64,000 bases of DNA from Geomonas paludis (GTDB lineage Bacteria > Desulfobacterota > Desulfuromonadia > Geobacterales > Geobacteraceae): positions 930,001-994,000 of the forward strand of contig NZ_BLXY01000002.1 in the NCBI RefSeq assembly GCF_014193585.1, given 5' to 3'. The translations under genes were made by a program, and so were the position numbers. A model generated the notes under the pieces. The model did not search any database, was not told the DNA's origin, and saw only the letters and a list, made by a program, of their open reading frames with translations. Positions 29,178 to 63,485 of the stretch are shown here, piece after piece. Positions within the stretch are counted from its first letter, which is position 1; each line of letters starts with the position of its first letter.

Positions 29178-29359
29178 GGTCTGTTCCTCGCCTACGACCG
29201 GGGAGTGGACCGGGCGGTATTGCCCAGGTCCAACCTCATGGTTGGCAATGCCATTGTCGACAACAGCTCGAATTAGCACGTAAGCGAACCAAGGAGATTG
29301 CGGCATGAGCAACAAAAATAAACATCTTGGATCGTCTCTCGATGATTTCCTTTTCGTCT

Positions 29360-32092
29360 TCAAAAACGGTTTCTGATCCATTTGTCCATTGATATCACCG
29401 GCAGCACGACAGCGCCTGCTGCCATGGCATACAACCAGCCTCTGGCGTCGAGCGGTGCCGAAGTAAAAAGTGCCTGCAGAGGCGGCAAGTAGATGAAACA
29501 GGAATGGAGCAGTAGCAGGAGGCCGATGCCGATATAGACGGACGGATTGCTGAACACGCCCTGGATCAGGAGAGAGTTGCGCAGGGACCGGCAGTTGAGC
29601 AGATAGAATACCTGGGTGAAGGTGATGCCGGTAACGCACATAGTCTGTGCTTCGGCCAGCGCCAGAGCGTGCCGGGCGGCCGTCACCGGTTCAGGCCCGA
29701 TGATCCGGAAATACTCCCAGAGAAACAGGCCGCAGGCAGATGCGGACATAAGCAGGGCCACCATGATGAGGCGTGCAACAATGAAACCCGAAAAAACCGG
29801 CTCATCCGGGGATCGGGGCATGCGCCGCATTGCATTAGGGTCCAGCACCTCGAAGGCCAGCGGGATCGAGAGAGTAACACTTGCCACCAGGTTGATCCAG
29901 AGAGTCTGGCTGGGGGACATGGCCATTAACAGCTCATTAACCCCGTCGACCCGCACCGTGGGGAAAAAAAACATGGATGCCGTCAGAGTGCAGGCCAGAC
30001 CAAGATTGGTGGGGAGCACGAATGCCAGGGATTTTAAGAGGTTGTCGTAGACCCGACGTCCCTCTTCCACCGCTGCGGTGATGGAAGCGAAATTGTCATC
30101 CATCAGGACAACCTTGGCCGCCTCCTTGGATACCGCCGTGCCGGTAATCCCCATGGCGATTCCTATGTCGGCCCGCTTGAGCGCCGGGGCGTCGTTGACT
30201 CCGTCGCCGGTCATGGCAACCACGTGGCGCTGCGTTTGGAGAGCCTGCACGAGCCGGATTTTATGTTCCGGTGCCACGCGGGCGAATACATTGGTACTCA
30301 TGACAGCCGACCGGAGTTCCGTTTCAGAAAGGTCATCGAGGTCGCGACCTGTCAGGGCAACCTGCCCATGCTGCAGCAGACCGAGTTGCCGGCCGATGGC
30401 TTCCGCCGTCACGGGATGGTCGCCGGTGATCATCTTGACCGTGATGCCGGCACTATGGCAGATCCTGATGGCGTCCACGGCTTCGCTACGCGGAGGATCG
30501 ATCATGCAGAGCAGTCCGGAAAATTGCAGCCCTTTTGCAACATCAGCAGGGGAAATCTCTTCTGCCGCAACGTTGCGGCGTTGGGCAAAAGCAATAACCC
30601 TCATCCCCTGGCGTGCGTAGGTGGCCATGGCTTCATTCACTGTTTGCTGCTCCGTTTCGTCCAGGCCGCAGCGATCAATGACTGCTTCCGGTGCCCCCTT
30701 GAGCAGGATGCGGTTTTCGCCGTCAATCCGGTTCAGGGTGGCCATGAATTTCGTGTCGGACTCGAAAGGGATAACGTCAAGACGCAGGTGGCGACTGCGA
30801 AAGTCATTGGCATTCACCCCCGCTTTCTGACAGGCAACCACCAGAGCGGCTTCTGTCGGATCGCCGGTGATGGCCCAGCCATCACCCTCGGGACGAAGCG
30901 CGGAATCATTGCACAGGACGGCAATGGAGAACAGTTCCTCCAGTTCCGGAGAAAATCTCGACAATCGGACGCCATCATGTTCGATCTCGCCTTCCGGGGC
31001 GTAGCCGATACCGGAAAACCGGTATTCGTGCCCTTCCAGCCATGCCACCTGGACCGTCATCTCATTGCGGGTCAGGGTACCGGTCTTGTCAGAGCAGATG
31101 ATGGTTGTGGAGCCCAGTGTTTCCACCGCCGGAAGATGACGGACAACAGCATGTCGTTCGGCCATCCGTCGGACGCCGATAGCGAGGCAGATCGTAATAA
31201 CCGCCGGCAACCCCTCGGGAATCGCTGCCACGGCCAGGGAAACGGCAACCATGAGGGATTCGCCGACCGGGGCATCCTTGATCCAGATACCGAAAGCGAT
31301 CAAAACCGCTACAACAACAACCACGGCGATGGTGATGCCGGTAGTGACCTTGGCCAGCTGTCGCGTCAGCGGGGTCTCCAGTTGCGTGGTCTGATTGAGA
31401 AGTGCATTGATTCTCCCCAATTCCGTCCAGTTCCCCGTGGCGACAACCACGCCGGTGGCCGTACCTTGGACCACCATGGTTCCGCTGTAGGCCATGCAAA
31501 AACGGTCGCCCAGCGGCGAGTTCGGCAGCACCTCATCGGAACGCTTTGCCACCGGCAGAGACTCGCCGGTAAGGGCGGCTTCTTCGACGAGCAGGTTCTT
31601 GACCCGGATCAGCCGCAAATCGGCCGGCACTTTGTCTCCGCTCTGCAATGTTACAACGTCGCCGGGTACCAATCCGTCGGCCGGCACCGCGATGGGCTGA
31701 CCGTCCCTCAGGACCGTCGCCGATTCGGGAATCATGGCAGCAAGCGCCTCGATAGCTTTGCCGGCCCGATATTCCTGAATGAAGCCGATGATGGCATTGA
31801 TCACGACTGCGCCGAATACGACAGCAGCGTCGGTGGGCTTTTTAAGGGCAAGGGCGAGAACGCCTGCCGCAAGGAGCAGCCATCCGATAGGATTGTTGAT
31901 CTGTCGCCAGAAGATCAGCCACGGGCTTGTTCCGGCGCTCCGGTCAAGGGTATTGGCACCGAAGCGCTGCAATCTTTCTGTGACTTCCCTGTCATTCAAT
32001 CCATCCGGATCTGTACCCAGTCGGGTCATCACTTCCTGATCGGATGACGCATGCCACGCAATTTCACCCGACTGTGCTGGACTCTTGTGCAT
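29360..32092 (-). CDS. P-type cation-transporting ATPase (P2-type, Ca2+/Na+/H+ group)
   Basis: ATG 32092 with an AGGAG site 10 bp upstream gives 910 residues; a TTG at 32116 is the alternative. Domains in order are a cation ATPase N-terminal domain (about 10-80), the actuator with LTGESLPV, M4 with PEGLPAV, the phosphorylation motif DKTGTLT near 340, TGDGVNDAPAL, and six C-terminal membrane segments. PEGLP in M4 and the NLVASVTLSIPLAFE M6 segment are typical of the P2 group. The transported ion cannot be fixed from this. It is monocistronic. Confidence 0.92.
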   Translation of the reverse strand: MHKSPAQSGEIAWHASSDQEVMTRLGTDPDGLNDREVTERLQRFGANTLDRSAGTSPWLIFWRQINNPIGWLLLAAGVLALALKKPTDAAVVFGAVVINAIIGFIQEYRAGKAIEALAAMIPESATVLRDGQPIAVPADGLVPGDVVTLQSGDKVPADLRLIRVKNLLVEEAALTGESLPVAKRSDEVLPNSPLGDRFCMAYSGTMVVQGTATGVVVATGNWTELGRINALLNQTTQLETPLTRQLAKVTTGITIAVVVVVAVLIAFGIWIKDAPVGESLMVAVSLAVAAIPEGLPAVITICLAIGVRRMAERHAVVRHLPAVETLGSTTIICSDKTGTLTRNEMTVQVAWLEGHEYRFSGIGYAPEGEIEHDGVRLSRFSPELEELFSIAVLCNDSALRPEGDGWAITGDPTEAALVVACQKAGVNANDFRSRHLRLDVIPFESDTKFMATLNRIDGENRILLKGAPEAVIDRCGLDETEQQTVNEAMATYARQGMRVIAFAQRRNVAAEEISPADVAKGLQFSGLLCMIDPPRSEAVDAIRICHSAGITVKMITGDHPVTAEAIGRQLGLLQHGQVALTGRDLDDLSETELRSAVMSTNVFARVAPEHKIRLVQALQTQRHVVAMTGDGVNDAPALKRADIGIAMGITGTAVSKEAAKVVLMDDNFASITAAVEEGRRVYDNLLKSLAFVLPTNLGLACTLTASMFFFPTVRVDGVNELLMAMSPSQTLWINLVASVTLSIPLAFEVLDPNAMRRMPRSPDEPVFSGFIVARLIMVALLMSASACGLFLWEYFRIIGPEPVTAARHALALAEAQTMCVTGITFTQVFYLLNCRSLRNSLLIQGVFSNPSVYIGIGLLLLLHSCFIYLPPLQALFTSAPLDARGWLYAMAAGAVVLPVISMDKWIRNRF

Positions 32093-32403
32093 CTTATGGC
32101 TGCTCCTGTTGGCCAACGGTCATGAGGCGCAGCAGGTTCACCGCTGCCGTCGATGGTCAGACATCTATTTTAAGCATCGACTGTGCTTTTGCAAACGAAC
32201 TGACCGTCGTGGCAATGTCATAGGATGGTGTCGCACAGGAAGAAAAGTCAACGAAATCGCCGCTACCCAAAATTCGTTCGTCTGCAGACTCATGGGTGTC
32301 GTGCCTTTTTGATAGCAGAGCAACTAATCCGCCAGCATTCCTGACGAGTCCACCTCCACGAAGGTCTTCCCGTTGTCCTTGTTCAATTCCCGCCTCTCCA
32401 GAT
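32093..32403. other. Intergenic region with a possible gene remnant
   Basis: A 311-bp gap between the ATPase and acetyltransferase genes. No intact gene. The part nearest the acetyltransferase holds a short out-of-frame coding remnant (see 32324-32450). Confidence 0.35.
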
Positions 32404-32450
32404 TCACCAGACATTTGAACCCTGATTTCCGATAGGGGCATCTGGGGTCA
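32324..32450 (-). pseudogene. C-terminal remnant of an unidentified Cys-containing protein
   Basis: In the frame one off the acetyltransferase, the minus strand reads KQADPRCPYRKSGFKCLVNL, then ERRELNKDNGKTFVEVDSSG and MLAD before a stop at 32324. The CxxxxxxxxC pair and the protein-like composition suggest the tail of a lost gene joined to the acetyltransferase's 3' end. No start codon or family was recognised. Low confidence. Confidence 0.3.
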
Positions 32451-33012
32451 GCCTGTTTGCCTCGGTACGGGTAGAACAAGCCAGCCAGTAATAGCTGCTG
32501 TTGTTGAACTGGAACTCGTTCAAAACAGACAAACCAAGCTTTTTGGTATGAGCCGAAAGCGAGCGAGGGTTTGTTTTGTTTATGAAGGTGACAAGGATGG
32601 GGTACCTTTGGGACATCGACTCCAGGGCGTATGCAAAGATCTTCTCGAGAACACCGGCGCCTCTAACCGTTGTGTCGATACAGATTGGGCCGTATTGGTA
32701 TGAATTCTCGGCACTCAACGTTTCCCCGTTGAACTTGTAATTGTGGAGTTGACCGATCATGTATGCCTTAACCGGGTATGTCGACCAGAAATGCCACGAT
32801 GCAGCCATTACGTAGGCAACTACTACGCCATCATCTTTCGCAATGAACAGGCCGTTTTCACCTAGAATCAACTCTGACAGCTGATCCTTGGTAAAAGCAG
32901 TTGTAACAAAACCGTCCTTTTTATCTTCCTCTTTTATCGTATCGATCTGAAATTTGCTGTGCAACGCCAATACACCGTCGATATCCAAAAGGTCTGCAAG
33001 CTTCAATTGCAT
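32404..33012 (-). CDS. GNAT-like N-acetyltransferase
   Basis: ATG 33012, with CAGGAG nine bases upstream, gives 202 residues. The fold is suggested by the N-terminal LADLLDIDGVLALHSKF helix, the central VAYVMAASW strand, an acetyl-CoA loop in place of the usual Q/RxxGxG/A (VRGAGVLEKIFAYAL) and NPRSLSAHTKKLG near the end. The gene is less GC-rich than its neighbours. Just upstream is an attC-like element (33043-33083), so it may be a gene cassette. The C-terminal residues after TEANRL may come from fusion with foreign sequence. Confidence 0.7.
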   Translation of the reverse strand: MQLKLADLLDIDGVLALHSKFQIDTIKEEDKKDGFVTTAFTKDQLSELILGENGLFIAKDDGVVVAYVMAASWHFWSTYPVKAYMIGQLHNYKFNGETLSAENSYQYGPICIDTTVRGAGVLEKIFAYALESMSQRYPILVTFINKTNPRSLSAHTKKLGLSVLNEFQFNNSSYYWLACSTRTEANRLTPDAPIGNQGSNVW

Positions 33013-33042
33013 CTGAATCTCCTGATGATCCCGGAATAGCAC

Positions 33043-33083
33043 GTCCAACTTTCTTGTTGGGCCCTTCCTTCGGGCAGTTGCTG
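33043..33083 (-). other. Possible degenerate attC-like site upstream of the GNAT gene
   Basis: On the minus strand it reads CAGCAAC, an inner hairpin GCCC/GGGC, and then GTTGGAC, which fits the GTTRRRY right core. It is shorter (41 bp) than the attC sites at 37-40 kb, and a matching site after the GNAT gene was not found. Low confidence. Confidence 0.3.
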
Positions 33084-33110
33084 GTGCCTTTTTTTGTGCC
33101 TTTGCGCAGC

Positions 33111-33139
33111 TTGTCTTTTTGTAATCGTTCGACTACAAT
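33111..33139 (+). promoter_or_regulatory. Predicted higBA promoter
   Basis: TTGTCT (33111-33116) and TACAAT (33134-33139) are spaced 17 bp. The -10 ends 6 bp before the toxin ATG, so transcription would start at or beside the start codon, giving a leaderless message. Confidence 0.5.
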
Positions 33140-33145
33140 AGCGAC

Positions 33146-33442
33146 ATGTACATCGTCAAGACCCTTCCCGAATTTGACGCTTGGCTAAATGGCATCAAAG
33201 ACCGCACCACTCGGTTACGGCTGGCTCGACGCCTTGACAAGGCCCAGCGAGGCAATCTCGGTGATGTCAAATCCGTTGGCCACGGCGTTTTCGAGATGCG
33301 TGAATTCTTTGGCTCCGGCTGGCGAATGTACTACATAGAACGTGGCAACATGCTTATCGTTATGCTCGGCGGTGGGGACAAGTCCACACAAGCAGCCGAC
33401 ATTGCCATTGCCTTCGAGCGAGCAGCCAGATTGGAGGATTGA
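33146..33442 (+). CDS. Type II toxin, RelE/HigB-like addiction module killer protein
   Basis: A 98-residue protein of the phage-derived Gp49/HigB group. FDAWLNGIKDRTTRLRLARR, GNLGDVKSVGHGVFEMREFF and WRMYYIERG are typical. Such toxins are ribosome-dependent mRNA interferases. The antitoxin gene follows 3 bp downstream, the toxin-first order usual for HigBA. The GC content and codon choice are lower than in flanking metabolic genes, in keeping with an accessory island. Confidence 0.92.
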   Translation: MYIVKTLPEFDAWLNGIKDRTTRLRLARRLDKAQRGNLGDVKSVGHGVFEMREFFGSGWRMYYIERGNMLIVMLGGGDKSTQAADIAIAFERAARLED

Positions 33443-33445
33443 CCC

Positions 33446-33748
33446 ATGCCGAAAAAAATCGTTGTATCCGGCCTGCCAGAATTTGATCTTGCCACGCAGT
33501 TAAAAAGCGAGGCCGACATTGCGGCGTATATCACCATGGTGATTGAGGAAGGTGACGCAGCAGAGTTGGCCCATACCTTAGGAGTAGCCGCACGAGCGCG
33601 CGGCATGGCTGAAATTGCTCAGGCTGCCGGGCTGACTCGCGAGGCCCTGTACAAAGCCTTGCGTCCCGGAGCTCATCCACGCTTCGACACCATCAGCCGA
33701 GTTTGTTCCGCCCTTGGAGTCCGCTTGGTAGCTCAGCCTCGCCATTAG
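33446..33748 (+). CDS. HigA-like antitoxin (addiction module antidote, helix-turn-helix)
   Basis: A 100-residue protein with a Cro/C1-type helix-turn-helix (about 58-95; MAEIAQAAGLTREALYKALR). FDLATQLKSEADIAAYI at the start is typical of the antidote family paired with Gp49-type toxins. It neutralises the toxin and probably represses the shared promoter at 33111-33139. It lies 3 bp after the toxin stop. Confidence 0.92.
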   Translation: MPKKIVVSGLPEFDLATQLKSEADIAAYITMVIEEGDAAELAHTLGVAARARGMAEIAQAAGLTREALYKALRPGAHPRFDTISRVCSALGVRLVAQPRH

Positions 33749-33797
33749 ACCTCGCCCTTTTACCTGGGGACATGGGGACGGGGACATGGGGGGACAT

Positions 33798-33939: not shown

Positions 33940-36933
33940 TTATCTGATCGTGGCCAAGGTGAAATCGGCAATGAACCCCGGCTTCATGACATCGGGCTCC
34001 TGCCGGTTATTGGTCAGTCTCTTGACCCGGCGATTCACGTACAAGTTAAGGTTGGCCACCGTGACCACCCCCTCATTGTTCACATCGGCCTTGCCGCTCA
34101 ACCCTTCCAGTAGCGCCTTGGTAAAGGCGCCATTGTTCCAGGCCTCGTCTTCGTAGGAAAACTGGGAACCCGAGGATGAGGCGAACACCACGACCCCCCT
34201 CTCGGCCGAACCGAGTTCATTGCCGACCCTGGTCATATCCCATCCGGTCCTGATGCCACCGGCAAGGCTGCCGCTGTGGCAGGTATCGAGGAAGATCACT
34301 GCCTTCCCCTTCAGGATGCTCAAGGTGTTCCTGATGTCCGAAAAGACCAGCCCGGTGTAGTCAAGCTCGTCCAGGTCCGTATCCGCAGGCAGGAAGTAGT
34401 AGAAGCCGGCCGCATCGTTCACCCCGTGACCCGCCAGAAAGATCATTCCCACATCGTTGGCGGTGACCTCCTTCTTCAACCAGGCCAGCCCGCTGATGAT
34501 CTCCCGCTTGGTCCCGTTCGGGAGCATCTTGACCTGCACCTCGCGGTACAACCTCCCTGCCTGCGTCTTCTGCGCCGCGGCAAAATCCTCCGCATCCTTG
34601 GCGGCAAACCGCAGGTTGAGCCCCTTGTCGCGATAGTCGCTGACCCCGACCGCCAGGAGAAAGAGCCGGGACTGTGGCTGACGTTTGGCCGCCGGTTCGC
34701 CCTTCAGAGCGATGACCGCCCGAGGCACAGGTTCCGATTCCTTTCCCCGCCAGTTCACCCGCACAGACCCCGGTACCGATGGCGCATGGCGATTTTCGGC
34801 AATGATGCTGACCACGCAGTCGCGGCTGGGGATAGCGATGGTCACGGTCTGTTCCGCTTCGCCGGCGGCAGCGGGGAACACGGTGACCGGCCTGCCGTCC
34901 ACCATGACCCGGATGCTGGTGGCCGGTGCGTCGGTCGGGGCGCGGACGGTGTAATGGATGGCCAGCGTACTTTCGACGGCAATGACGTTGTCGTCAGGGG
35001 CGGTGATCGCCACCACCGGCGGCAGGAACCGGGAGATGGCAGCCTCCTTCCGTGCCCCTCCGCGGGCCGCATCGGCCAGGCGCACCGCCTCGTCTTCGTC
35101 GCCCGTCCCTACGATCCTGGCGATGATATCGGGACGGTACCGGGTCTCCCTGAAGCGCGAAGCCGGATAAAAGTCGGCCGCTGCATCCTTGCCCCTGTTC
35201 AGATGCCAGCCAATCAGTTCTTCCCCCCCCAGAGAGGCGTCGTAGTACCCTGAGGCGGTCCAGAGGATCCAGCGTTTCCTGTCGGCGTGGGGGAAAAAGG
35301 CCAGCAGCTCCTTGCCGTCGCGGTAGCGATACCAGCGGATGGTGCCGTCGCCGCAGGCGACCACGGCCAGATTTCCCTTCCGGTCAATATTGACGGCCCA
35401 GGCATCGCCGGGAACGGGGACACTCCACTGTTCACCCCCGCGTTTATCGAATCGGCGCAGTGCCCAACTGGTACCGAGCAGGAACGACTCCCGGTCCGGG
35501 GCAATGGCCAGGGACCGGGAGAGCTCGAATTGGTCCAGCGGGAGCGGCGAGCCGGAAAGGGCGGGTTCCGGGGTGTTCTTCCAGCGAGTGATCGGTAGGG
35601 AAGAGGTGTCCGGCGGGGTGAGCCCGCTCCGGGCGGAGTCGAGGCTCAGAGAACGGTCCGCGAGGGAGAAGGTCCCCCGTTCCGTGCCGTATTCCTTATA
35701 GCCGAACTGAATGGTACCCCCGTCTTCCGAGAGGAGCAGATCCCTCGACGTCCCCCGGAAGTCCGCCAGTTCCGGCAGAATCAGCAGTCGCCGGACGCCA
35801 TCCGCCCCCAACACACCAATGGTAGGATCGGCGGCGCCATAGGCGAGTCCTCCGTCGGGCAGGGGCGCCAGAGCCGTAATCACGTTGGAGACGCCGGACT
35901 CCCGATCACGGTATGCCCCCTTTCCGCCTCCTGGCCAGCTGCGGATACAGACACTGCCATCAACAAGCAGCCTCCCCCCGCCGTATAGGGTGCGTCCGTC
36001 TGCTGACCAGGCAACCGAAGCAAAAGCGCCGTTCGCCCCTCCGGTATCCGCAGCGTTGACCAGCCCCAGGTCCGACGATGCGAGGACACTGACAGCGGCG
36101 GTGTCATCGAAACAGACCGCAATTTGGGCCCCATCGGGGGAAAACCGGACCGAAAAGGGTCGCTCCCCCCCCGGCACCTTCCTGATAATCATCGGAGTCG
36201 CGGCAACCGCCCCCCCTTCACCTTTGCCCCAGGACGTGGTGTCATACACCCGCACCATGCCATCGTAACAGGCAGTCACCAGCCGGTTCCCGTCTGGAGA
36301 GAAGTGAGCGCCGTATGCAGGTCTGTCGTAGGCGACATCCCTGGCTGTCAGGCGTAGCCCCACGGAAGAGGCTCGCCCCCCATCACCGGCAGGAGACACG
36401 GTAAAAATGCGGACGCCGCCATCACCCAGTGTCGCCGCAAGAAAACGGCCATCGGGTGAAAAGGCCAGTTGCAGGATCACGTTGCCCAGCCCCCCGGCTC
36501 TTCCCACCAGGCGACCGTCGGTGCGGGAGAAAAGGTAGACGGTATGGCCGGTAGTGCTGCCAGCTTCCGTCCATCCCCCAGCGGCCACCAAGGCGCCATC
36601 GGGGGTGATGGCAACGCTGTACAGCTTCCCTTCTTTTCCCGGAGCGATGGGGGGGCGAAGGATGCGGGCCGGTTGCAGTTGCGGTCCGGGCGATCCGCCG
36701 GACTCTTTGCCGATGCTGGCCAGATCCCAGACCCGCACGGTCTTGTCGTTGGACGCCGATACAAGCCAGCGGCCTCCCTTGTCCACGTCGATCCGGTTGA
36801 TCATCTCCATATGCATCCCGGTTTCGACACGCAGCATCGGTTCGGTGGTCGGAACAGGCGCGGCTCGTCCCGCCAGGGGGCAACTGCAGACCAGCAGGAG
36901 CATGGTGATCAGGGAGACAGCAAAACGCTTCAT
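33940..36933 (-). CDS. Exported WD40-repeat protein with C-terminal caspase-like (C14) peptidase domain
   Basis: ATG 36933 with AAAGGATGTTCC upstream gives 997 residues. A signal peptide is at about 1-25. WD40-type beta-propeller repeats (about 30-460, e.g. DKGGRWLVSASNDKTVRVWD and FSPDGNRLVTACYDGMVRVYD) are followed by a linker with a beta-sandwich-like part (about 640-720). A caspase/metacaspase-type domain follows (about 745-990) with LFLLAVGVSDYRD, the catalytic His in LAGHGV and Cys in DTCHSG. Such proteins cleave substrates after activation. In bacteria they are linked to programmed death or stress but are mostly uncharacterised. It is monocistronic and adjoins an integron cassette array, though it carries no matching attC of its own. 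Confidence 0.9.
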   Translation of the reverse strand: MKRFAVSLITMLLLVCSCPLAGRAAPVPTTEPMLRVETGMHMEMINRIDVDKGGRWLVSASNDKTVRVWDLASIGKESGGSPGPQLQPARILRPPIAPGKEGKLYSVAITPDGALVAAGGWTEAGSTTGHTVYLFSRTDGRLVGRAGGLGNVILQLAFSPDGRFLAATLGDGGVRIFTVSPAGDGGRASSVGLRLTARDVAYDRPAYGAHFSPDGNRLVTACYDGMVRVYDTTSWGKGEGGAVAATPMIIRKVPGGERPFSVRFSPDGAQIAVCFDDTAAVSVLASSDLGLVNAADTGGANGAFASVAWSADGRTLYGGGRLLVDGSVCIRSWPGGGKGAYRDRESGVSNVITALAPLPDGGLAYGAADPTIGVLGADGVRRLLILPELADFRGTSRDLLLSEDGGTIQFGYKEYGTERGTFSLADRSLSLDSARSGLTPPDTSSLPITRWKNTPEPALSGSPLPLDQFELSRSLAIAPDRESFLLGTSWALRRFDKRGGEQWSVPVPGDAWAVNIDRKGNLAVVACGDGTIRWYRYRDGKELLAFFPHADRKRWILWTASGYYDASLGGEELIGWHLNRGKDAAADFYPASRFRETRYRPDIIARIVGTGDEDEAVRLADAARGGARKEAAISRFLPPVVAITAPDDNVIAVESTLAIHYTVRAPTDAPATSIRVMVDGRPVTVFPAAAGEAEQTVTIAIPSRDCVVSIIAENRHAPSVPGSVRVNWRGKESEPVPRAVIALKGEPAAKRQPQSRLFLLAVGVSDYRDKGLNLRFAAKDAEDFAAAQKTQAGRLYREVQVKMLPNGTKREIISGLAWLKKEVTANDVGMIFLAGHGVNDAAGFYYFLPADTDLDELDYTGLVFSDIRNTLSILKGKAVIFLDTCHSGSLAGGIRTGWDMTRVGNELGSAERGVVVFASSSGSQFSYEDEAWNNGAFTKALLEGLSGKADVNNEGVVTVANLNLYVNRRVKRLTNNRQEPDVMKPGFIADFTLATIR

Positions 36934-37015
36934 GGAACATCCTTTGGGGTTATGTAGAATCGACATGATGATTTGCAATTGTTCCCCATATGGTGAGGAT
37001 TACGTTTTGAGAGGC

Positions 37016-37067
37016 ATAAAACGGGCGGCGGGGCATCAGCGGATACCGCTGTCGCCGCTGGTTGGCA
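37016..37067 (-). other. Integron attC site, 3' of the metallophosphoesterase cassette
   Basis: On the minus strand it begins with TGCCAAC directly at the gene's stop, followed by stems GCGGCG/CGCCGC and CAGCGG/CCGCTG. It ends with a poor right core (GTTTTAT). It would be the last attC of the array. The left core matches the cassette's own front (GTTGGCC) at 6 of 7 positions. Confidence 0.55.
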
Positions 37068-37940
37068 TCAGGTTAGTGTCAATACTGTTGCTTCAGGCAT
37101 GCAGTTCAGCCTGACCGGCGCAAGTAGACATCCCACGCCCCGGGAAACGTAAGTCTGTCGTTCTTCGTCTCGAACCAGACCTTGACGATATTTCTGTCCG
37201 AATTTCGAAGGGATGACAGGCTGACCAATAAACGGTACTACAACTTGACCGCCATGGGTATGACCTGACAACACTAAATCAATGCGCTCTTTTGAAAGAG
37301 AAATGTCATCGTTGATATCTGGGTTGTGGCTTAGAAGAATCTTGATCGAATCTCTGTTTATTCCCTCGCATGCTGCCGAAAGGGAGCAGCTTGATTCCCA
37401 ATAATCGTCGACACCGAGAAGGTGAAAGGACGCTCCTGACTTTTTAAGCTCGACATTGGTGTTCCTAAGCCAGGTCACGCCAACTCGCTTGCTGAGCGTG
37501 TCACAAATCGCCTTAACCGACGCCGACCCGCTCCAGAAGTCGTGATTTCCTAAAACTCCATAAATCCCCATAGGCGCTTTCAACTGTGAGAGGGCGATTG
37601 CGCAGCGTTCTAAATATTGGAGTTTAAACTCTCCGATGGAACCTGAAAGGAATTTGGTGGAACCGGAGATGAAATCGCCGGTGAGGACAATAATGTCAGG
37701 GCGTTCCGACATCACTAAGTCGGCAGCGGCCTTTATCAAATCTTTAGATACGATGAATGATGAATGAAAGTCTGTCAGGAGGCCAATCTTCATTCCTTGA
37801 AGCGGAGCTGGCAGCTGCTTGATTCTTACCGGAACCCGGACAAGTTCAACCTGTGCACCGGTCGAATTGAAATAGCCCTTTCCAAGCGTTGCGACAATTA
37901 GGCCTCGAAATGAATATTTTAGAAAGTCACGTCGGTTCAA
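37068..37940 (-). CDS. Tat-exported metallophosphoesterase (integron cassette gene)
   Basis: TTG 37940 was chosen because GGAAAGAG lies ahead and it starts exactly at a Tat signal (LNRRDFLKYSFRGLIVATLG); 290 residues. All calcineurin-like motifs are present: TDFHSS, LTGDFISG, GNHDFW, LLSHNPD and SGHTHGGQV. It resembles the YaeI/YkuE-type phosphodiesterases, which act on lipids or small phosphoesters outside the cytoplasm. The gene sits between attC sites (37016-37067 and 37960-38062) and is AT-richer than the genome. It is therefore probably a mobile cassette gene. Confidence 0.88.
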   Translation of the reverse strand: MNRRDFLKYSFRGLIVATLGKGYFNSTGAQVELVRVPVRIKQLPAPLQGMKIGLLTDFHSSFIVSKDLIKAAADLVMSERPDIIVLTGDFISGSTKFLSGSIGEFKLQYLERCAIALSQLKAPMGIYGVLGNHDFWSGSASVKAICDTLSKRVGVTWLRNTNVELKKSGASFHLLGVDDYWESSCSLSAACEGINRDSIKILLSHNPDINDDISLSKERIDLVLSGHTHGGQVVVPFIGQPVIPSKFGQKYRQGLVRDEERQTYVSRGVGCLLAPVRLNCMPEATVLTLT

Positions 37941-37959
37941 ATTATTCTCTTTCCTTTTC

Positions 37960-38062
37960 GGCCAACGGCTCGGCCTTGACCGGTGGAGCACCAGGCTCCT
38001 TTCAGCTTTCCGCAAACTCTCAGGGATTGCGAAGTCCTGGTCTACGCGCTTGATTGGGACAC
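37960..38062 (-). other. Probable attC site between YCII and metallophosphoesterase cassettes
   Basis: The right core GTTGGCC (37966-37960) and the preceding GGTCAAGGCCGAGCC segment are clear and match the site at 39015-39086. The inner hairpin GGAGCC/GGTGCTCC is present. The left core is degenerate (CCCAAT rather than CCCAAC), so the outer limit is uncertain. Confidence 0.5.
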
Positions 38063-38121
38063 CTTCTTCTAGTTATCAATTTATCAATGCCAGGTTCGGC
38101 AGTTTCCTGGTTGTCCCGACC

Positions 38122-38463
38122 TCATGACTCTGGATCAAACCCGAATACTCGAAGCTCCTGATCACAGCGACACGCTCTCGCGATACGTGCGGCCCATGCG
38201 ATGGCCTCCCTTCTTGAAGGCAGCTCAAGTACAGTGAAACCACCATTGAGCTGAGGCGCCCATGGGTAGCCTCCCTCAGCGACTGAACCATTGGCCGAAA
38301 CAAGAACGGGCGGTACTGTTTCATCAATACCACCGCCGAAAACGTAGACGCCCGCCTCCTTCGCCTCGCGCATTACGGCATGAGCATCTCGACCAACCGC
38401 CTCCCGCTCACTGTCGGGTACATTCATTGCGACACTGGGAAATGAAATTAGATATTTTGCCAT
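38122..38463 (-). CDS. YCII-related family protein (integron cassette gene)
   Basis: A 113-residue protein similar to DGPF/YCII-type small proteins: LISFPSVAMNV, DAHAVMREAKEAGVYVFGGGI, and GFTVLELPSRREAIAWAARIARAC. The fold is a ferredoxin-like barrel related to dehydrochlorinase, with no known activity for this branch. It is bounded by attC sites and oriented like the other cassettes, which suggests expression from a shared upstream promoter. Confidence 0.75.
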   Translation of the reverse strand: MAKYLISFPSVAMNVPDSEREAVGRDAHAVMREAKEAGVYVFGGGIDETVPPVLVSANGSVAEGGYPWAPQLNGGFTVLELPSRREAIAWAARIARACRCDQELRVFGFDPES

Positions 38464-38503
38464 GATCTTCTTTGTTCAAGAACGGTTAGTTGATACAGGT
38501 CAT

Positions 38504-38563
38504 GCCCAACGGCTCGCCGCTGAGCCGTGAGCGTCAGCAGTCGGCTCCAGTGGCGTGTTGGCG
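38504..38563 (-). other. Integron attC site
   Basis: 60-bp imperfect palindrome. The left core CGCCAAC (38563-38557) starts one base past the DUF4826 stop, the right core is GTTGGGC (38510-38504), and the stems are GCCACTGGAGCCG against CGGCTCAGCGGC. The left core is the exact complement of the front of the same cassette (GTTGGCG at 39021-39015), as expected for a cassette that was once circular. Confidence 0.85.
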
Positions 38564-38564
38564 G

Positions 38565-39002
38565 TCACTCCTCCCAGACAGATTCATCCTCTGCAAACTG
38601 CGCGAGAAGTTCTGAACGCCTTTTCAGAAGATCTCCCAGCATTGGCCAGTCTTTTGGAGTACCGATCTTAATGGCTGGGTGAGATTCGCCTCGCAACAGG
38701 TACCCTGAAACTTCTCCCCATACTTCTGCAAACCTTCGCATCGCTTCTCTTGGATGCTTTACCATCTCAGCTGAAATATAGTCTGTCGGCAAGTCTCCGG
38801 TGATGGCCCACCACCCAACCCAACCTGGGCTTTTCTTGCTTTCTATTGCCCAGATCGCAACGTATGGCGGAACATGCCATGCTGGCCACTCTCCAATCTC
38901 TCCGTGGTCAACGTTTTGCTCTTTCAGGTACTCCTCAACCCGGGAACGTTGCTCTGCACACCACCGTTCCTCAATCTCTGGATTTTCATAATCTTCAGTC
39001 AT
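38565..39002 (-). CDS. DUF4826 family protein (integron cassette gene)
   Basis: ATG 39002 with AGAAGGAAAATC upstream gives 145 residues. It is a small soluble protein with several Trp in WPAWHVPPYVAIWAIES and GWVGWWAITGDLPTDYI, the signature of DUF4826. Function unknown. It lies between attC sites with perfectly complementary cassette ends. Codon use is more AT-rich than in neighbouring core genes. Confidence 0.82.
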   Translation of the reverse strand: MTEDYENPEIEERWCAEQRSRVEEYLKEQNVDHGEIGEWPAWHVPPYVAIWAIESKKSPGWVGWWAITGDLPTDYISAEMVKHPREAMRRFAEVWGEVSGYLLRGESHPAIKIGTPKDWPMLGDLLKRRSELLAQFAEDESVWEE

Positions 39003-39014
39003 GATTTTCCTTCT

Positions 39015-39086
39015 CGCCAACGTGGCCGGCCTTGACCCGCCCGCCCGGCCTTCTCGGGCGGTCGGCGTCTAAGGACGTGGTTAGAT
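39015..39086 (-). other. Integron attC site
   Basis: Left core ATCTAAC (39086-39080), right core GTTGGCG (39021-39015), long inner stem CGCCCG/CGGGCG with flanking GTCAAGG. The left core is the exact complement of the front of the Imm63-like cassette (GTTAGAT at 39546-39540). Confidence 0.8.
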
Positions 39087-39530
39087 TCCTTTGTCTCGCC
39101 TCATTCGATTAACAGCCTTCGTTGGTTCATCATCGTATGGTGCGCGTCGCAAGACTTCGGCAATCTCCTCCCTCAAACGAGCAGCCATTTTTGAACTGAT
39201 CCTTGTCATCAATTCAATCTGCTTCGGAAAAGCGATTCTCCGGCAGTCTTGATCTTCGATTCGACTTTTTAACTCGTACGCGAAAGCTAAGTTATGTGTT
39301 GCGTCTTCGAAGATCCAGTACAGCAACTCGTCGTAGTCATTGGTTGTTTTTCTCTCAAGCTCTTGGCCTCGCTCCACAACTACATAGTGGTATCCAAGCT
39401 CGTTCACTTCAATGTGCGGGTACCCGAAGTCTCTCGTTCTGCCATATGTCGGCAGATCATTTGTCGAAGCGCCAATTAGTTTGGCTAGAAGTGTCACTTC
39501 AGCCTTTATTTCATTTAGTTTTTTCATCAT
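39081..39530 (-). CDS. Immunity protein 63 (Imm63)-like protein (integron cassette gene)
   Basis: A 149-residue protein with DFGYPHIEVNELGYHYVVVE and ELLYWIFEDATHNLAFAYEL, similar to what I recall of the Imm63 family. Imm proteins neutralise polymorphic toxins. No partner toxin is nearby, so it would be an orphan immunity cassette. The gene overlaps the left core of its attC by 6 bp and follows an attC directly upstream. ATG 39530 has GGAAGAAC upstream; the next Met is an alternative. Confidence 0.65.
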   Translation of the reverse strand: MMKKLNEIKAEVTLLAKLIGASTNDLPTYGRTRDFGYPHIEVNELGYHYVVVERGQELERKTTNDYDELLYWIFEDATHNLAFAYELKSRIEDQDCRRIAFPKQIELMTRISSKMAARLREEIAEVLRRAPYDDEPTKAVNRMRRDKGI

Positions 39531-39539
39531 TGTTCTTCC

Positions 39540-39601
39540 ATCTAACGGTGTGGCCGCTGAGCCGCGAGCGTCAGCGAGACGGCTCCAGTGGCGTGTTGGA
39601 A
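39540..39601 (-). other. Integron attC site
   Basis: 62-bp site with left core TTCCAAC (39601-39595), right core GTTAGAT (39546-39540) and stems GCCACTGGAGCCG/CGGCTCAGCGGC nearly identical to the site at 38504-38563. The left core exactly complements the front of the membrane-protein cassette (GTTGGAA at 39917-39911). The 3' end of that cassette's gene runs into the site. Confidence 0.85.
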
Positions 39602-39909
39602 CTCCTTCGCATTCTCCAGTATAGGATGGAGAAGATACTGATAGAGTACATCACTAAAGCAACAATAATGAACTTGCCTACGTTGTCGTTATTGAAGCCT
39701 TCCCACCCACTGATCGGCTCCGGAATCACATACTCGTAAAGGTACATAGGCCAGAATGTGAGCATGTTTAATATTTCGTGAATGTTCTTGCTTAATTGCT
39801 TTATTCCGTTTTTTTCTGCGGCTTCACTTGCCAACACCAAGAGGGCCAGTGTGCCTGGTGGAATAATGATCGAAGCCAATATGATTTTTGCTGTTTTCAT
39901 AAATTTCAT
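39571..39909 (-). CDS. Small two-span membrane protein (integron cassette gene)
   Basis: A 112-residue protein of no recognised family. It has hydrophobic segments at about 8-26 (ILASIIIPPGTLALLVLA) and 78-97 (FIIVALVMYSISIFSILYW). Its end NTPLEPSR is encoded by the attC itself, as is common for cassette proteins. ATG 39909 lies at the edge of the preceding attC; ATG 39900 is an alternative. Toward the integrase remnant it is the first surviving cassette. Confidence 0.6.
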   Translation of the reverse strand: MKFMKTAKIILASIIIPPGTLALLVLASEAAEKNGIKQLSKNIHEILNMLTFWPMYLYEYVIPEPISGWEGFNNDNVGKFIIVALVMYSISIFSILYWRMRRSSNTPLEPSR

Positions 39910-39910
39910 G

Positions 39911-39966
39911 TTCCAACGAGTCAGAGTTTATGCGGCGCGCAGCCGCCGCGTAAACTTTTGTTGAAC
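39911..39966 (-). other. Integron attC site, first of the array
   Basis: 56 bp: left core GTTCAAC (39966-39960), stem GTTTACGCGGCG/CGCCGCATAAAC with a GCTGCG loop, and right core GTTGGAA (39917-39911). It is the clearest hairpin of the array. The cassette that supplied its left half is not recognisable, so that cassette has probably been lost or decayed. Confidence 0.85.
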
Positions 39967-40474
39967 GAAGCCGCTGCCTGCTGGCTATCTGGATTTTTAG
40001 CACCGGTTTTCTGTTTTTGGCGTGTGGATAATACGGTCTTTATGAGAGGATTTCAATAGCGATTGTGGCAAAGGGATCGGGATCTCTGCCTTTATTGGAC
40101 CTTCAGGCAATTTCTCCGGCAACTATAAGGACTATTTTTGCCAGTCCGGGCACACCTATAGGGATGCGCCTGGTACTCCACGCGCCGCCCCTTTCGTTTT
40201 ACCAGCTACCTTCACTCGCCCCTTGGTGGGCTCCTCGATCTGGAAATCCAGCCGACAACAACCATCACGCCTGCGCAGCATGGACATGCCGCTGACGAGC
40301 TCTGCGTGCTTACCGGTTCTTCTTCTCTTTCCCTGGGTTGCCTTTGCGCCAACAGCAACTGCAGCCGCTTTAGAGCCCGTCGGTTCGCTGGACTCAACAG
40401 ACCGTAGTAACGAACCTTGTGGAATCGGGAGGGACGCAGACCTGAGTCCCCAGAATTCCCCGATGAACCTTTCT
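39967..40474. other. Gap between the cassette array and the recombinase remnant
   Basis: About 510 bp with no convincing intact gene. In a working integron this interval would hold attI, the cassette promoter and the 5' two thirds of intI. Open frames cross it, but they show no recombinase motifs; a short hydrophobic reading near 40300-40380 has no homologue I know. It looks like decayed or replaced sequence. Confidence 0.4.
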
Positions 40475-40618
40475 GCGACCCACCTGCTGCAAGCGAACTA
40501 CGACATTCGCCTCATCCAGAAACTCCTGGGCCATTCCAGCCTGAAGACGACCATGATCTACACCCACTGCGTCCCCGTCCTGACGCTGCAAGCACCGAAA
40601 AGCCCGTTGGATTTTTGA
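40475..40618 (+). pseudogene. C-terminal remnant of an integron-type tyrosine recombinase (intI pseudogene)
   Basis: About 47 codons read [20 protein letters not shown], then [11 protein letters not shown], ending KSPLDF and a stop. They contain the LLGH box and the catalytic tyrosine in TTMIYTH of XerC/IntI recombinases, and the SPLD ending typical of IntI. The preceding HxLRH box is not recognisable and the rest of the gene is missing. The plus-strand orientation, opposite to the cassettes and beside the first attC, is where intI sits in an integron. A non-integron Xer-like origin cannot be excluded. Confidence 0.7.
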
Positions 40619-40636
40619 TGGCCCGAGCAACAAGGG

Positions 40637-40846
40637 GCGCGTTTTCTGATTTTACGAGCACGTTTCATGATTTTGTGATCACGTTTCACGATTTTCGAGG
40701 GACGTTTTGTGATTTTACGATGGCGTTTCACGATTTTGTCGGGTAGTTTTCCGATTTTGCGATCACGTTTTCTGATTTTAGGGGCACGTTTTGCGATTTC
40801 ATGGGGACGTTTACTGATTTTGACGCGACGTTTCACCATTTTACCG
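40637..40846. repeat. Tandem array of ten 21-bp units
   Basis: Ten adjacent 21-bp units with the core ACGTTTCATGATTTT, diverged at the other positions, and no partial unit lost. Because 21 is a multiple of three, both strands stay open. The minus strand encodes heptads of the type KIVKRDR (from an ATG at 40844), the plus strand TFHDFVI heptads. It starts 19 bp after the recombinase remnant. It may be a minisatellite or the core of a small repetitive protein; no ribosome site decides. Confidence 0.8.
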
Positions 40847-40943
40847 GCTAATGCTCGCAAACCGCACTGCAAGGGGGGGGAGTTTGGGGGCGAGTGCCAC
40901 CACCGAACCCGCGGGTAGTCGATGGTGGCACTGGAGAGGAGAG

Positions 40944-62063: not shown

Positions 62064-63485
62064 CTACTTGTTGACGACGCAGTCGATGATGGCGTTGATC
62101 CTGCGGTTTTGCTGCCGCCCTTCCGCCGTCTTGTTGTAGGCGATGGGGCGGGTGGACCCGAACCCTTTGGCGGAGAGGCGGGAGCGCTCGATACCGAAGT
62201 TCTTGACCAGGTAGTCGACCACGTTCTGGGCGCGCTGCTGGGACAGCTTCATGTTGTGGGCGGCATCGCCGGTGTTGTCGGTATGCCCCTCGATGACCGC
62301 GGTGGTGGTGGTGTAACGCTTCATGTAGTCGGCGACCTTGGCGATCTCATCGCGGTACTGCGGCTTGACCTCGGCCTTGCCGGAGTCGAAGTCGACCACC
62401 AGGGACATGCACAGCCGCTCCGGCGGGGTGACCTGCTGCACGTCGAAGGCGCAGTCGATGATGGCCTCGATACGGCGGTTCTTCTGCTTCCCTTCGTTGG
62501 TGGCGTTGTCGGCGATGGGGCGGGTGAAGCCGTACCCCTTGGCGGCAAGACGGGTGCGCTCGATGCCGTACTGCTCGGCCAGCACGTCGACCACGGCCTG
62601 GGCGCGGCGCTGGGAGAGATCCATGTTGTGGTTGTAGGAACCGACGTTGTCGGTGTGCCCCTCGATGACGGCGGTGGTGGTCGGATACTTCTTCATGAAG
62701 TTGCCCACCTGGGCGATCTGGTCGCGCAGCTCCTGGCGCACGATGGCCTTGTCGATGTCGAACTCACCCTGCAGGGTGATGCAGTACTTGTAGTGCCCCG
62801 GGGTCGGCTCGGCGGCGACCGGCTGCGGCTGCGGCTGGGCTTCGGGCTGCGCCGGCGGCGGGGTCTGGGCGACGGTGCCGCCCGGCTCGGCTGCCGCAGC
62901 CTTGGCGGGAGCGGCTTTCATGGTCCGCCCACCCATCACGAAGGTGAGGCCGATGCTGTATTCCCAGTTCCTGGCGATGTTCTCCTCGATGTCGGAGCTC
63001 TGGAAGTCGATGATGCGGCGGGCGTCGGCCCTGAAGGCGATGTCGTCGTTGAAGAACAGCTTGAAGCCGGCGCCGCCGTTGGCGGTGCCGTCGTGGAGGT
63101 TGGCGCCGTGGTACCTGATGGTGTACCCGCCGCCGCCCAGGGCCAGATAGGGGACGAAGGCCGACCTGGGCATGAAGTTCCAGATCAGGTCCAGGTGGTA
63201 GGAGTACATGCCGTTCTCGCGATCGGTGGCCTGGTCCTCCACCCTCAGGTAGCTCCCCACGAGCTCGGTGGCGAAGTTGTCGGTCCAGTCGTAGCCGAGC
63301 CGCAAACCACCGGTGATCCGGTTCTCCCTGTAGGTGCGCTGGGGCAGTTTCGAATCGTCGAAGATGTAGCCGCCGACGAAGGGGGAGATGGAGAACGCAC
63401 CCGCACGTTCTCCGGCGTGCGCCGTGGCGGCCAGCGCCATCACGGCCAGGACCATGATGCAGATGAAGCCGGTGATCTTTTTCAT
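62064..63485 (-). CDS. OmpA-family outer-membrane protein with two tandem OmpA domains
   Basis: A 473-residue protein: signal peptide (about 1-24, cut near AHAGERAG), N-terminal 8-strand barrel (about 28-185; FSISPFVGGYIFDDSKLPQR), an Ala/Pro/Gln-rich linker (about 195-225), then two OmpA_C peptidoglycan-binding domains. These are at about 228-345 (VIEGHTDNVGSYNHNMDLSQ) and 350-470 (VIEGHTDNTGDAAHNMKLSQ). The two OmpA domains are very alike, so they arose by duplication. It anchors the outer membrane to the cell wall. The ATG follows AAGGAGGCTACCACG; the leader is long. Confidence 0.92.
   Translation of the reverse strand: MKKITGFICIMVLAVMALAATAHAGERAGAFSISPFVGGYIFDDSKLPQRTYRENRITGGLRLGYDWTDNFATELVGSYLRVEDQATDRENGMYSYHLDLIWNFMPRSAFVPYLALGGGGYTIRYHGANLHDGTANGGAGFKLFFNDDIAFRADARRIIDFQSSDIEENIARNWEYSIGLTFVMGGRTMKAAPAKAAAAEPGGTVAQTPPPAQPEAQPQPQPVAAEPTPGHYKYCITLQGEFDIDKAIVRQELRDQIAQVGNFMKKYPTTTAVIEGHTDNVGSYNHNMDLSQRRAQAVVDVLAEQYGIERTRLAAKGYGFTRPIADNATNEGKQKNRRIEAIIDCAFDVQQVTPPERLCMSLVVDFDSGKAEVKPQYRDEIAKVADYMKRYTTTTAVIEGHTDNTGDAAHNMKLSQQRAQNVVDYLVKNFGIERSRLSAKGFGSTRPIAYNKTAEGRQQNRRINAIIDCVVNK

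Follow-up and report, generated by a model that had tools for sequence, protein, structure and literature searches.

Positions 37016-40618 of the window (the whole 64,000-nucleotide stretch of Geomonas paludis DNA analysed here, G000:C2:930001-994000) very probably hold the remnant of an ancestral Geomonas chromosomal integron, in which the integrase gene intI has been reduced to 47 codons and the gene cassettes have been left behind. The region had been described in an earlier note as an inactivated integron in a chromosome of the Geobacteraceae, the family to which NCBI assigns Geomonas. This description is supported with corrections: the integrase is of a long type, an IS91-type transposase remnant lies beside it, the cassette promoter (Pc) and the attachment site attI are missing along with an intact intI and the region is larger than was reported. 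The genome that contains the window (G000, 99.99% complete) was compared with other Geomonas species rather than with other strains of its own species, and the genus survey covered 19 Geomonas genomes, G000 included.

The integrase remnant

The earlier note had reported a 47-codon recombinase piece at 40475-40618, and this piece is present: it lies on the plus strand and ends in a stop codon of its own. Together with this stop, its 47 codons are the 3' end of a long-type integron integrase gene and correspond to codons 429-475 of a 475-codon open frame in G010 (integrase frames are measured here from stop to stop; in G010, the likely initiating Met is at codon 11). The G010 integrase is intact, lies at the syntenic locus and is 91% identical to the piece over 47 amino acids. 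Comparison with 30 integrase loci of relatives gives 76-91% identity to the 20 that end in THCVPV...SPLD, 19 of which have open frames of 452-523 codons and one a frame of 330. Identity to the other 10 loci is 52-63% over 46 residues (six loci) or 70-74% over 31-33 residues (four loci). Among integrase profiles, the piece matches TIGR02249 best (49.4 bits, extending to profile position 313 of 315), ahead of XerC (46.0 bits) by a small margin; the identity evidence is clearer. Both scores are below the curated cut-offs, as is expected for a piece of 47 residues. Judged by these identities, the piece is the C-terminus of the long type of integron integrase and not of the usual IntI of ~335 amino acids. 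The N-terminal extension of this type is present in the intact orthologue and deleted in the window.

The piece had been placed beside the first attC site of the array, in divergent orientation. The orientation stands, as the plus-strand piece opposes a minus-strand array, but ~0.5 kb containing an IS91-type remnant intervenes. This remnant (40218-40436, minus strand) is the C-terminal part of an IS91-type (Y2) transposase, comprising residues 288-360 of 361, and is 77% identical to L114:4579-5664, a protein with the conserved Pfam domains Y2_Tnp and Zn_Tnp_IS91. These C-terminal 73 residues are all of a Y2 transposase that the window contains. The DNA between the transposase remnant and the integrase piece (40437-40474) has no match among the compared loci, and integrase homology begins at 40474/40475 in most loci and at 40469 in two.

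Because the transposase remnant adjoins the piece, and because its intact relative in locus L114 is accompanied by a 281-amino-acid tyrosine recombinase, the piece could belong to an IS91-type element as its accessory tyrosine recombinase, with the cassettes being an unrelated attC cluster. This is very improbable. The piece is only 49% identical over 37 amino acids to the 281-amino-acid recombinase, far from its identity to the long integrases, and it opposes the direction of the transposase remnant, whereas the two genes are co-directed in L114. Its intact orthologue at the syntenic locus, moreover, stands at the head of an attC array. The candidate was thus rejected on G010 synteny and identity; the adjacent IS91-type remnant is real but separate.

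The attC sites and their cassettes

The attC sites were examined with a covariance model, R2, that was built here rather than taken from IntegronFinder. It was trained on 38 sites, all from relatives (loci L041, L042, L044, L045, L046, L050, L106, L107, L114, L115 and L116), that were chosen by scans requiring cores and a hairpin, apart from one site chosen by eye. The site at L114:5914 was excluded as a near copy of the window site at 39911. The structure of R2 was set by hand from the alignment, towards which it therefore leans; it replaced an earlier model, R1, because RNAalifold gave only 4 pairs on the same alignment. The 38 aligned sites fold into a hairpin whose left arm contains two bases without a partner. 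In this alignment, 84.0% of cells are paired (slid controls: 21-39%), the covariation score is 0.406 (shuffled: 0.124) and changes on both sides of a pair occur in 101 cells (shuffled: 35.8). At loci with a long integrase that were fetched with 11-12 kb, an attC match of more than 25 bits is found on the expected side and strand in six of eight (G010, G011, G002, G037, G018 and G033); of the remaining two, G026 has two weak matches of 18.5-18.7 bits and G015 has none.

The five best R2 matches in the whole window, at 39015 (53.7 bits), 39540 (35.9 bits), 38504 (29.1 bits), 29190 (19.1 bits) and 37960 (17.8 bits), are all on the minus strand, which is that of the cassettes. The best match outside the region scores 15.9 bits (at 62395), so three sites stand well above background by this model. 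These are the attC of a cassette with an Imm63-like gene (39015-39086, E-value: 3.4e-10), that of the cassette whose gene begins at 39571 (39540-39601, E-value: 3.9e-6) and that of a DUF4826 cassette (38504-38563, E-value: 1.4e-4). The earlier note had claimed five hairpin sites with RYYYAAC and GTTRRRY cores. The cores are as claimed at these three sites but not at the other two, which are decayed but have homologous sites in relatives. The site at 37960-38059 (minus strand) belongs to a type of ~100 nt, and its left core reads AAT where AAC is expected; the site aligns with eight attC sites of similar length, four of which lie on further contigs of the window's genome. The site at 37016-37067 (minus strand, 13.9 bits) has the left core (R'') TGCCAAC, but its right core is GTTTTAT, which does not fit GTTRRRY. 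Its left arm is homologous to L106:10163-10235 and L111:8105-8165 and its right end is altered. A search of the whole genome with R2 returned at least 11 matches at E-values of up to 1, the lowest at 24.5 bits, with 150 of 5186 first-look candidates scored and the 29.1-bit window site absent from those listed. At gathering scores, Rfam has no match within the window.

If a cassette was once circular, the heptamer at its front should be complementary to one in its own attC. Such complements had been reported for the cassettes at 39571, 39081 and 38565, and all three are real: each front heptamer is the exact complement of the left core of the same cassette (7/7). A script gave 5/7 and 4/7 for the other two cassettes; the latter value stems from a misread left core, and reading TGCCAAC by eye gives 6/7. 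The same comparison was made on cassettes from relatives and from three other contigs of the window's genome (L118, L119 and L120), limited to those shorter than 2500 bases whose cores could be read. Of these 58 cassettes, 20 gave an exact match, whereas 2000 shuffles averaged 1.99 and never exceeded 8. The shuffles correspond to a chance of ~3.4% per cassette, at which, by hand arithmetic, three exact matches among five have a probability of ~4e-4. A strict scan that demanded matching cores within one site was discarded: it recovered none of the sites of the array and gave six matches in the window, all near 61.8 kb. Core pairs of the same site are exact in 0 of 71 cases, and the proper comparison is that between the front of a cassette and its own end.

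The five minus-strand open reading frames (ORFs) that had been assigned to the cassettes are present as claimed. The first (39571-39909) encodes a 112-amino-acid protein with no Pfam family. It is followed by genes for an Imm63-like immunity protein (39081-39530; PF15599, E-value: 2.2e-26) and a DUF4826 protein (38565-39020; PF16108, E-value: 2.7e-27). The gene at 38122-38463 encodes a YCII-like protein (PF03795, 22.6 bits, under the cut-off of 24), and that at 37068-38015 a YaeI-like metallophosphoesterase (PF00149, E-value: 1.6e-13; PRK11340, 167.8 bits, under the cut-off of 188). The DUF4826 cassette also lies between attC sites elsewhere, its counterparts covering 38556-39040 in G001 (87% identity) and starting from 38557 in G003 (79% identity). 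In both genomes, homology starts inside the preceding attC and runs to the left core of the attC that belongs to the cassette itself, the hairpin of which is a different one.

Some observations weigh against an integron remnant. The IS91-type remnant separates the piece from the array, two of the five reported sites (37960 and 37016) score at or near background, and the share of paired cells in the attC alignment is partly built in because the scans for training sites demanded a hairpin. In addition, two cassette genes recur in G015 without a good attC match beside them. The DUF4826 gene alone (38567-39022, 84% identity) is found there upstream of a complete long IntI, at a locus without an attC match (L049), and a segment barely larger than the YCII-like gene (38121-38479) has an 87% identical copy in G015:C12, where one weak attC match (19.8 bits) lies ~3 kb away. 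The two low-scoring sites would suit an explanation of the sites as chance hairpins between ordinary genes. The scores of 29-54 bits at the other three sites, the core complementarity and the breaks of homology at the cores leave this explanation with a very small probability, and the sites are best read as attC sites of an integron.

The IS91-type remnant itself is part of a cassette-like unit, bounded by GTTGAAC and an attC-like hairpin, that occurs at L114:3580-5969, in L148 and at 39911-40436 of the window. The intact relative (L114:3580-5969, in G010:C57) encodes the 281-amino-acid tyrosine recombinase and a 361-amino-acid Y2 transposase. Its first bases are GTTGAAC, immediately after an attI-like core, and at its far end is a hairpin that opens with GTTCAAC. 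Positions 39915-40424 of the window recur in G010:C57 at 81% identity, with the homology stopping at GTT, and a copy in G037 starts behind a 25.2-bit attC match. Five right ends of such units in three genomes all diverge after GTT. The attC model does not recognise their hairpin ends: the right end of the truncated window unit (39911-39966, minus strand; R'' GTTCAAC, R' GTTGGAA) scores 12.3 bits, and it was taken as a junction on the ground that homology to other copies ends at this point. The unit fits a gene cassette, and the same appearance would result from an IS91-type element with GTT as its target. What lies between the piece and the array is probably a truncated cassette with an IS91-type transposase, and the first attC-like site belongs to this unit.

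Decay of the locus in the genus

Seven genomes share both flanks of the locus; G013:C3, where the contig ends, and G011:C2, where the left flank is not shared, were not counted. G010 has the complete integrase, the same right-hand genes and 21-bp repeats as the window, and attC matches on the left. It also has an IS3-type transposase gene (Pfam rve and HTH_21) between the repeats and the integrase. In G006 (L106:4226-4810), codons 1-163 and 447-475 of the integrase are joined in a single open frame of 195 codons. G017 keeps codons 1-34, G012 codons 1-23 and the window codons 429-475. In G003, the leader survives as far as the start codon, with essentially no integrase; homology in G002 ends among the last codons, again with essentially no integrase. 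The locus thus has one intact copy, four different remnants and two cases with essentially none. Because the endpoints differ, separate losses are the simplest reading, by which the sister species would have lost the integrase at the same place in different ways. The cassette arrays at this locus have only one gene block of the window in common (33091-33767, 93% identical in G002), and cassette genes of the window are placed elsewhere in other species. Gene order is therefore not fixed among the species compared, and a fixed order, which the earlier note had named as an argument against an integron, is not what is seen.

The 21-bp tandem repeats (GATTTTnnnnnnACGTTTnnn, detected at 40636-40850 by TRF) are in the right flank, outside the integron. 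They lie between the piece and the next gene and have counterparts at the same place in G002, G006, G010 and G017.

Comparison of G010 with other loci points to an attI-like core, AATTTCCCACTAATAnGTnGTTG, that precedes the first cassette, and a promoter-like sequence (TTGACA-N17-TATATT) lies by the intI start codon, directed at the cassettes. The core is present in G010, G006, G003, G002 and contig 3 of the window's genome. No copy occurs anywhere in the window with up to 6 substitutions allowed, and the leader that contains the putative Pc also has no match in the window. Contigs 8, 3 and 17 of the same genome do match the leader (contig 17 over 41 bases only), with loci at G000:C8:30622-30895 and G000:C3:232064-232222. 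Across the genus, the stretch from leader to attI is matched in whole or in part at 37 places in 13 of the 19 Geomonas genomes. Thirty of these were fetched (L153-L182) and one, L180, was dropped as it overlaps L156, leaving 29 distinct loci. With up to one mismatch in TTGACA and a spacer of 16-18, 24 of the 29 show the promoter pattern; the attI-like core (up to 4 substitutions) occurs in nine and at least one attC match with an E-value of up to 0.1 in 20. A complete integrase is found at one locus, an N-terminal remnant at seven and no detectable integrase at 21; a recombinase match in L176 was not counted as an integrase remnant. Some of the leader matches are only 35-85 bases long and may not be modules. 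The possibility that leader-attI modules move as cassettes was also considered, and no same-strand attC match was found upstream of them within the ~1.5 kb fetched. The promoter may have been retained for cassette expression.

Between the promoter and the attI-like core is a conserved leader hairpin, GGGAGGATGGCCAG-TTTT-CTGGCCATCC (L044:7021-7060 and homologues). The sequence of its 5' arm recurs just before attI, so an alternative pairing is possible. Covariation in this hairpin is weak, with 2 of 13 pairs changed on both sides, a count equalled in 413 of 500 shuffles.

A complete long IntI is encoded by five of the 19 Geomonas genomes (G010, G011, G018, G002 and G015), among which G011 and G015 have no leader match. 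G013 has a divergent frame of 415 codons, and further fragments occur in G003, G005, G006, G014, G016 and G017. In L045 and L046 (G011 and G002, respectively), the long integrase gene lies next to an open frame for a relaxase-helicase of the TrwC type, and the L046 copy of this frame has the Pfam domain TrwC. As a general partner of the long IntI this relaxase was rejected, since it is found at only 2 of 24 distinct loci within the fetched extent.

The variable region probably starts at about 29.2 kb, where the conserved G002 flank begins; this left flank begins at 29197 in G002 and at 29213 in G017. At the same edge is an attC-like site with a decayed right core (29190-29247, minus strand), the 19.1-bit match given above. 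The region is taken to be larger than reported because two blocks to the left of the array have copies elsewhere, one of them behind an attC match. The block at 33044-33767 contains a toxin-antitoxin-like pair on the plus strand (33146-33442 and 33446-33748; Pfam dnstrm_HI1420 and Gp49, just below cut-off) and has a 94% identical copy in L120 (G000:C3) that begins 14 bases behind an attC match. The block at 32394-33042 (minus strand) contains most of a 214-amino-acid ORF (32404-33048) with no Pfam match and is 94% identical to L120:7663-7008, also in contig 3, where the two copies stand apart from each other. Between the two blocks, which recur separately, is a possible attC remnant of two cores only (GCCCAAC...GTTGGAC; 33043-33062, minus strand), with an R2 score of 15.8 bits that is at background level. 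Also within the variable region are a 918-amino-acid ORF at 29360-32116 and a gene for a 1012-amino-acid WD40-caspase protein (33940-36978, minus strand; Pfam WD40 and Peptidase_C14). The latter has a weak PADLOC match ('caspase') and has matches in five of the 19 Geomonas genomes, its own included.

Rather than a fossil, the array could be a reservoir that is still mobile through an integrase acting in trans. Three attC sites look intact, a complete long IntI is available in the genus and both blocks have close copies in contig 3 of the same genome. No IntI above the TIGR02249 cut-off was found in the window's genome, for all its completeness, and two attC cores are mutated, making a mobile array unlikely. 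A broader idea, possible though doubtful, is that the Geomonas integron is turning from a capture device into a fixed expression platform, in which the promoter, the leader hairpin and often attI are kept while the adjacent integrase is repeatedly lost, often up to the promoter, and that cassettes may be moved, independently of IntI, by the cassette that encodes both a Y2 transposase and a tyrosine recombinase.

Proposed model and relation to known integrons

The proposed model for the integron and its decay is as follows. In its working form, a long IntI with an N-terminal extension of ~120 amino acids would be transcribed away from the array, would insert cassettes at attI next to the cassette promoter and would excise or shuffle them via their attC hairpins. 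In the window, a single deletion may have taken Pc, attI, most of the first (IS91-type) cassette and the whole of intI except its final 47 codons. The remaining cassettes would then have been stranded and would now be immobile, and two of their attC cores have mutated.

Integrons in Xanthomonas, where IntI is of ordinary length, allow a comparison. That genus is reported to have an ancestral chromosomal integron downstream of ilvD in which intI was repeatedly inactivated after one acquisition (PMC12444791). The Geomonas locus is alike in being ancestral in its genus, with intI inactivated in several species and arrays left. It differs in that Geomonas belongs to another phylum and has many promoter-leader-attI loci without an integrase.

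By length and bacterial group, the long integrases would correspond to 'clade 15' of Nemergut et al. 2008, which is described there as a clade of Deltaproteobacterial integrases made ~120 amino acids longer by a gene fusion (PMC2426708). The same source reports that nearly a third of intI genes are pseudogenes. In the part available, it covers integrase genes, with function inferred from the shared fusion, and does not name Geomonas; here, attC arrays, an attI-like core and a promoter are connected with long integrases of the same bacterial group. A search among openly licensed PMC papers found none joining Geomonas with an integron.

IntegronFinder 2.0 defines a CALIN as a cluster of attC sites without an integron integrase (PMC9024848). 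With at least two attC sites of conserved fold as the requirement, and with three sites at 29.1-53.7 bits and two decayed ones by model R2, the array in the window would probably be classed as a CALIN. Unlike a plain CALIN, it retains a recognisable integrase remnant and has an intact orthologue of that integrase at the same locus in a relative. The Geomonas locus is a further instance of integron decay, in a genus other than Xanthomonas, and one at which an intact copy can be set beside several different remnants. Long integron integrases have been little studied, and the attI-like core, the likely promoter and the attC model described here would make the activity of the long IntI and the cost of its upkeep testable in a soil bacterium.

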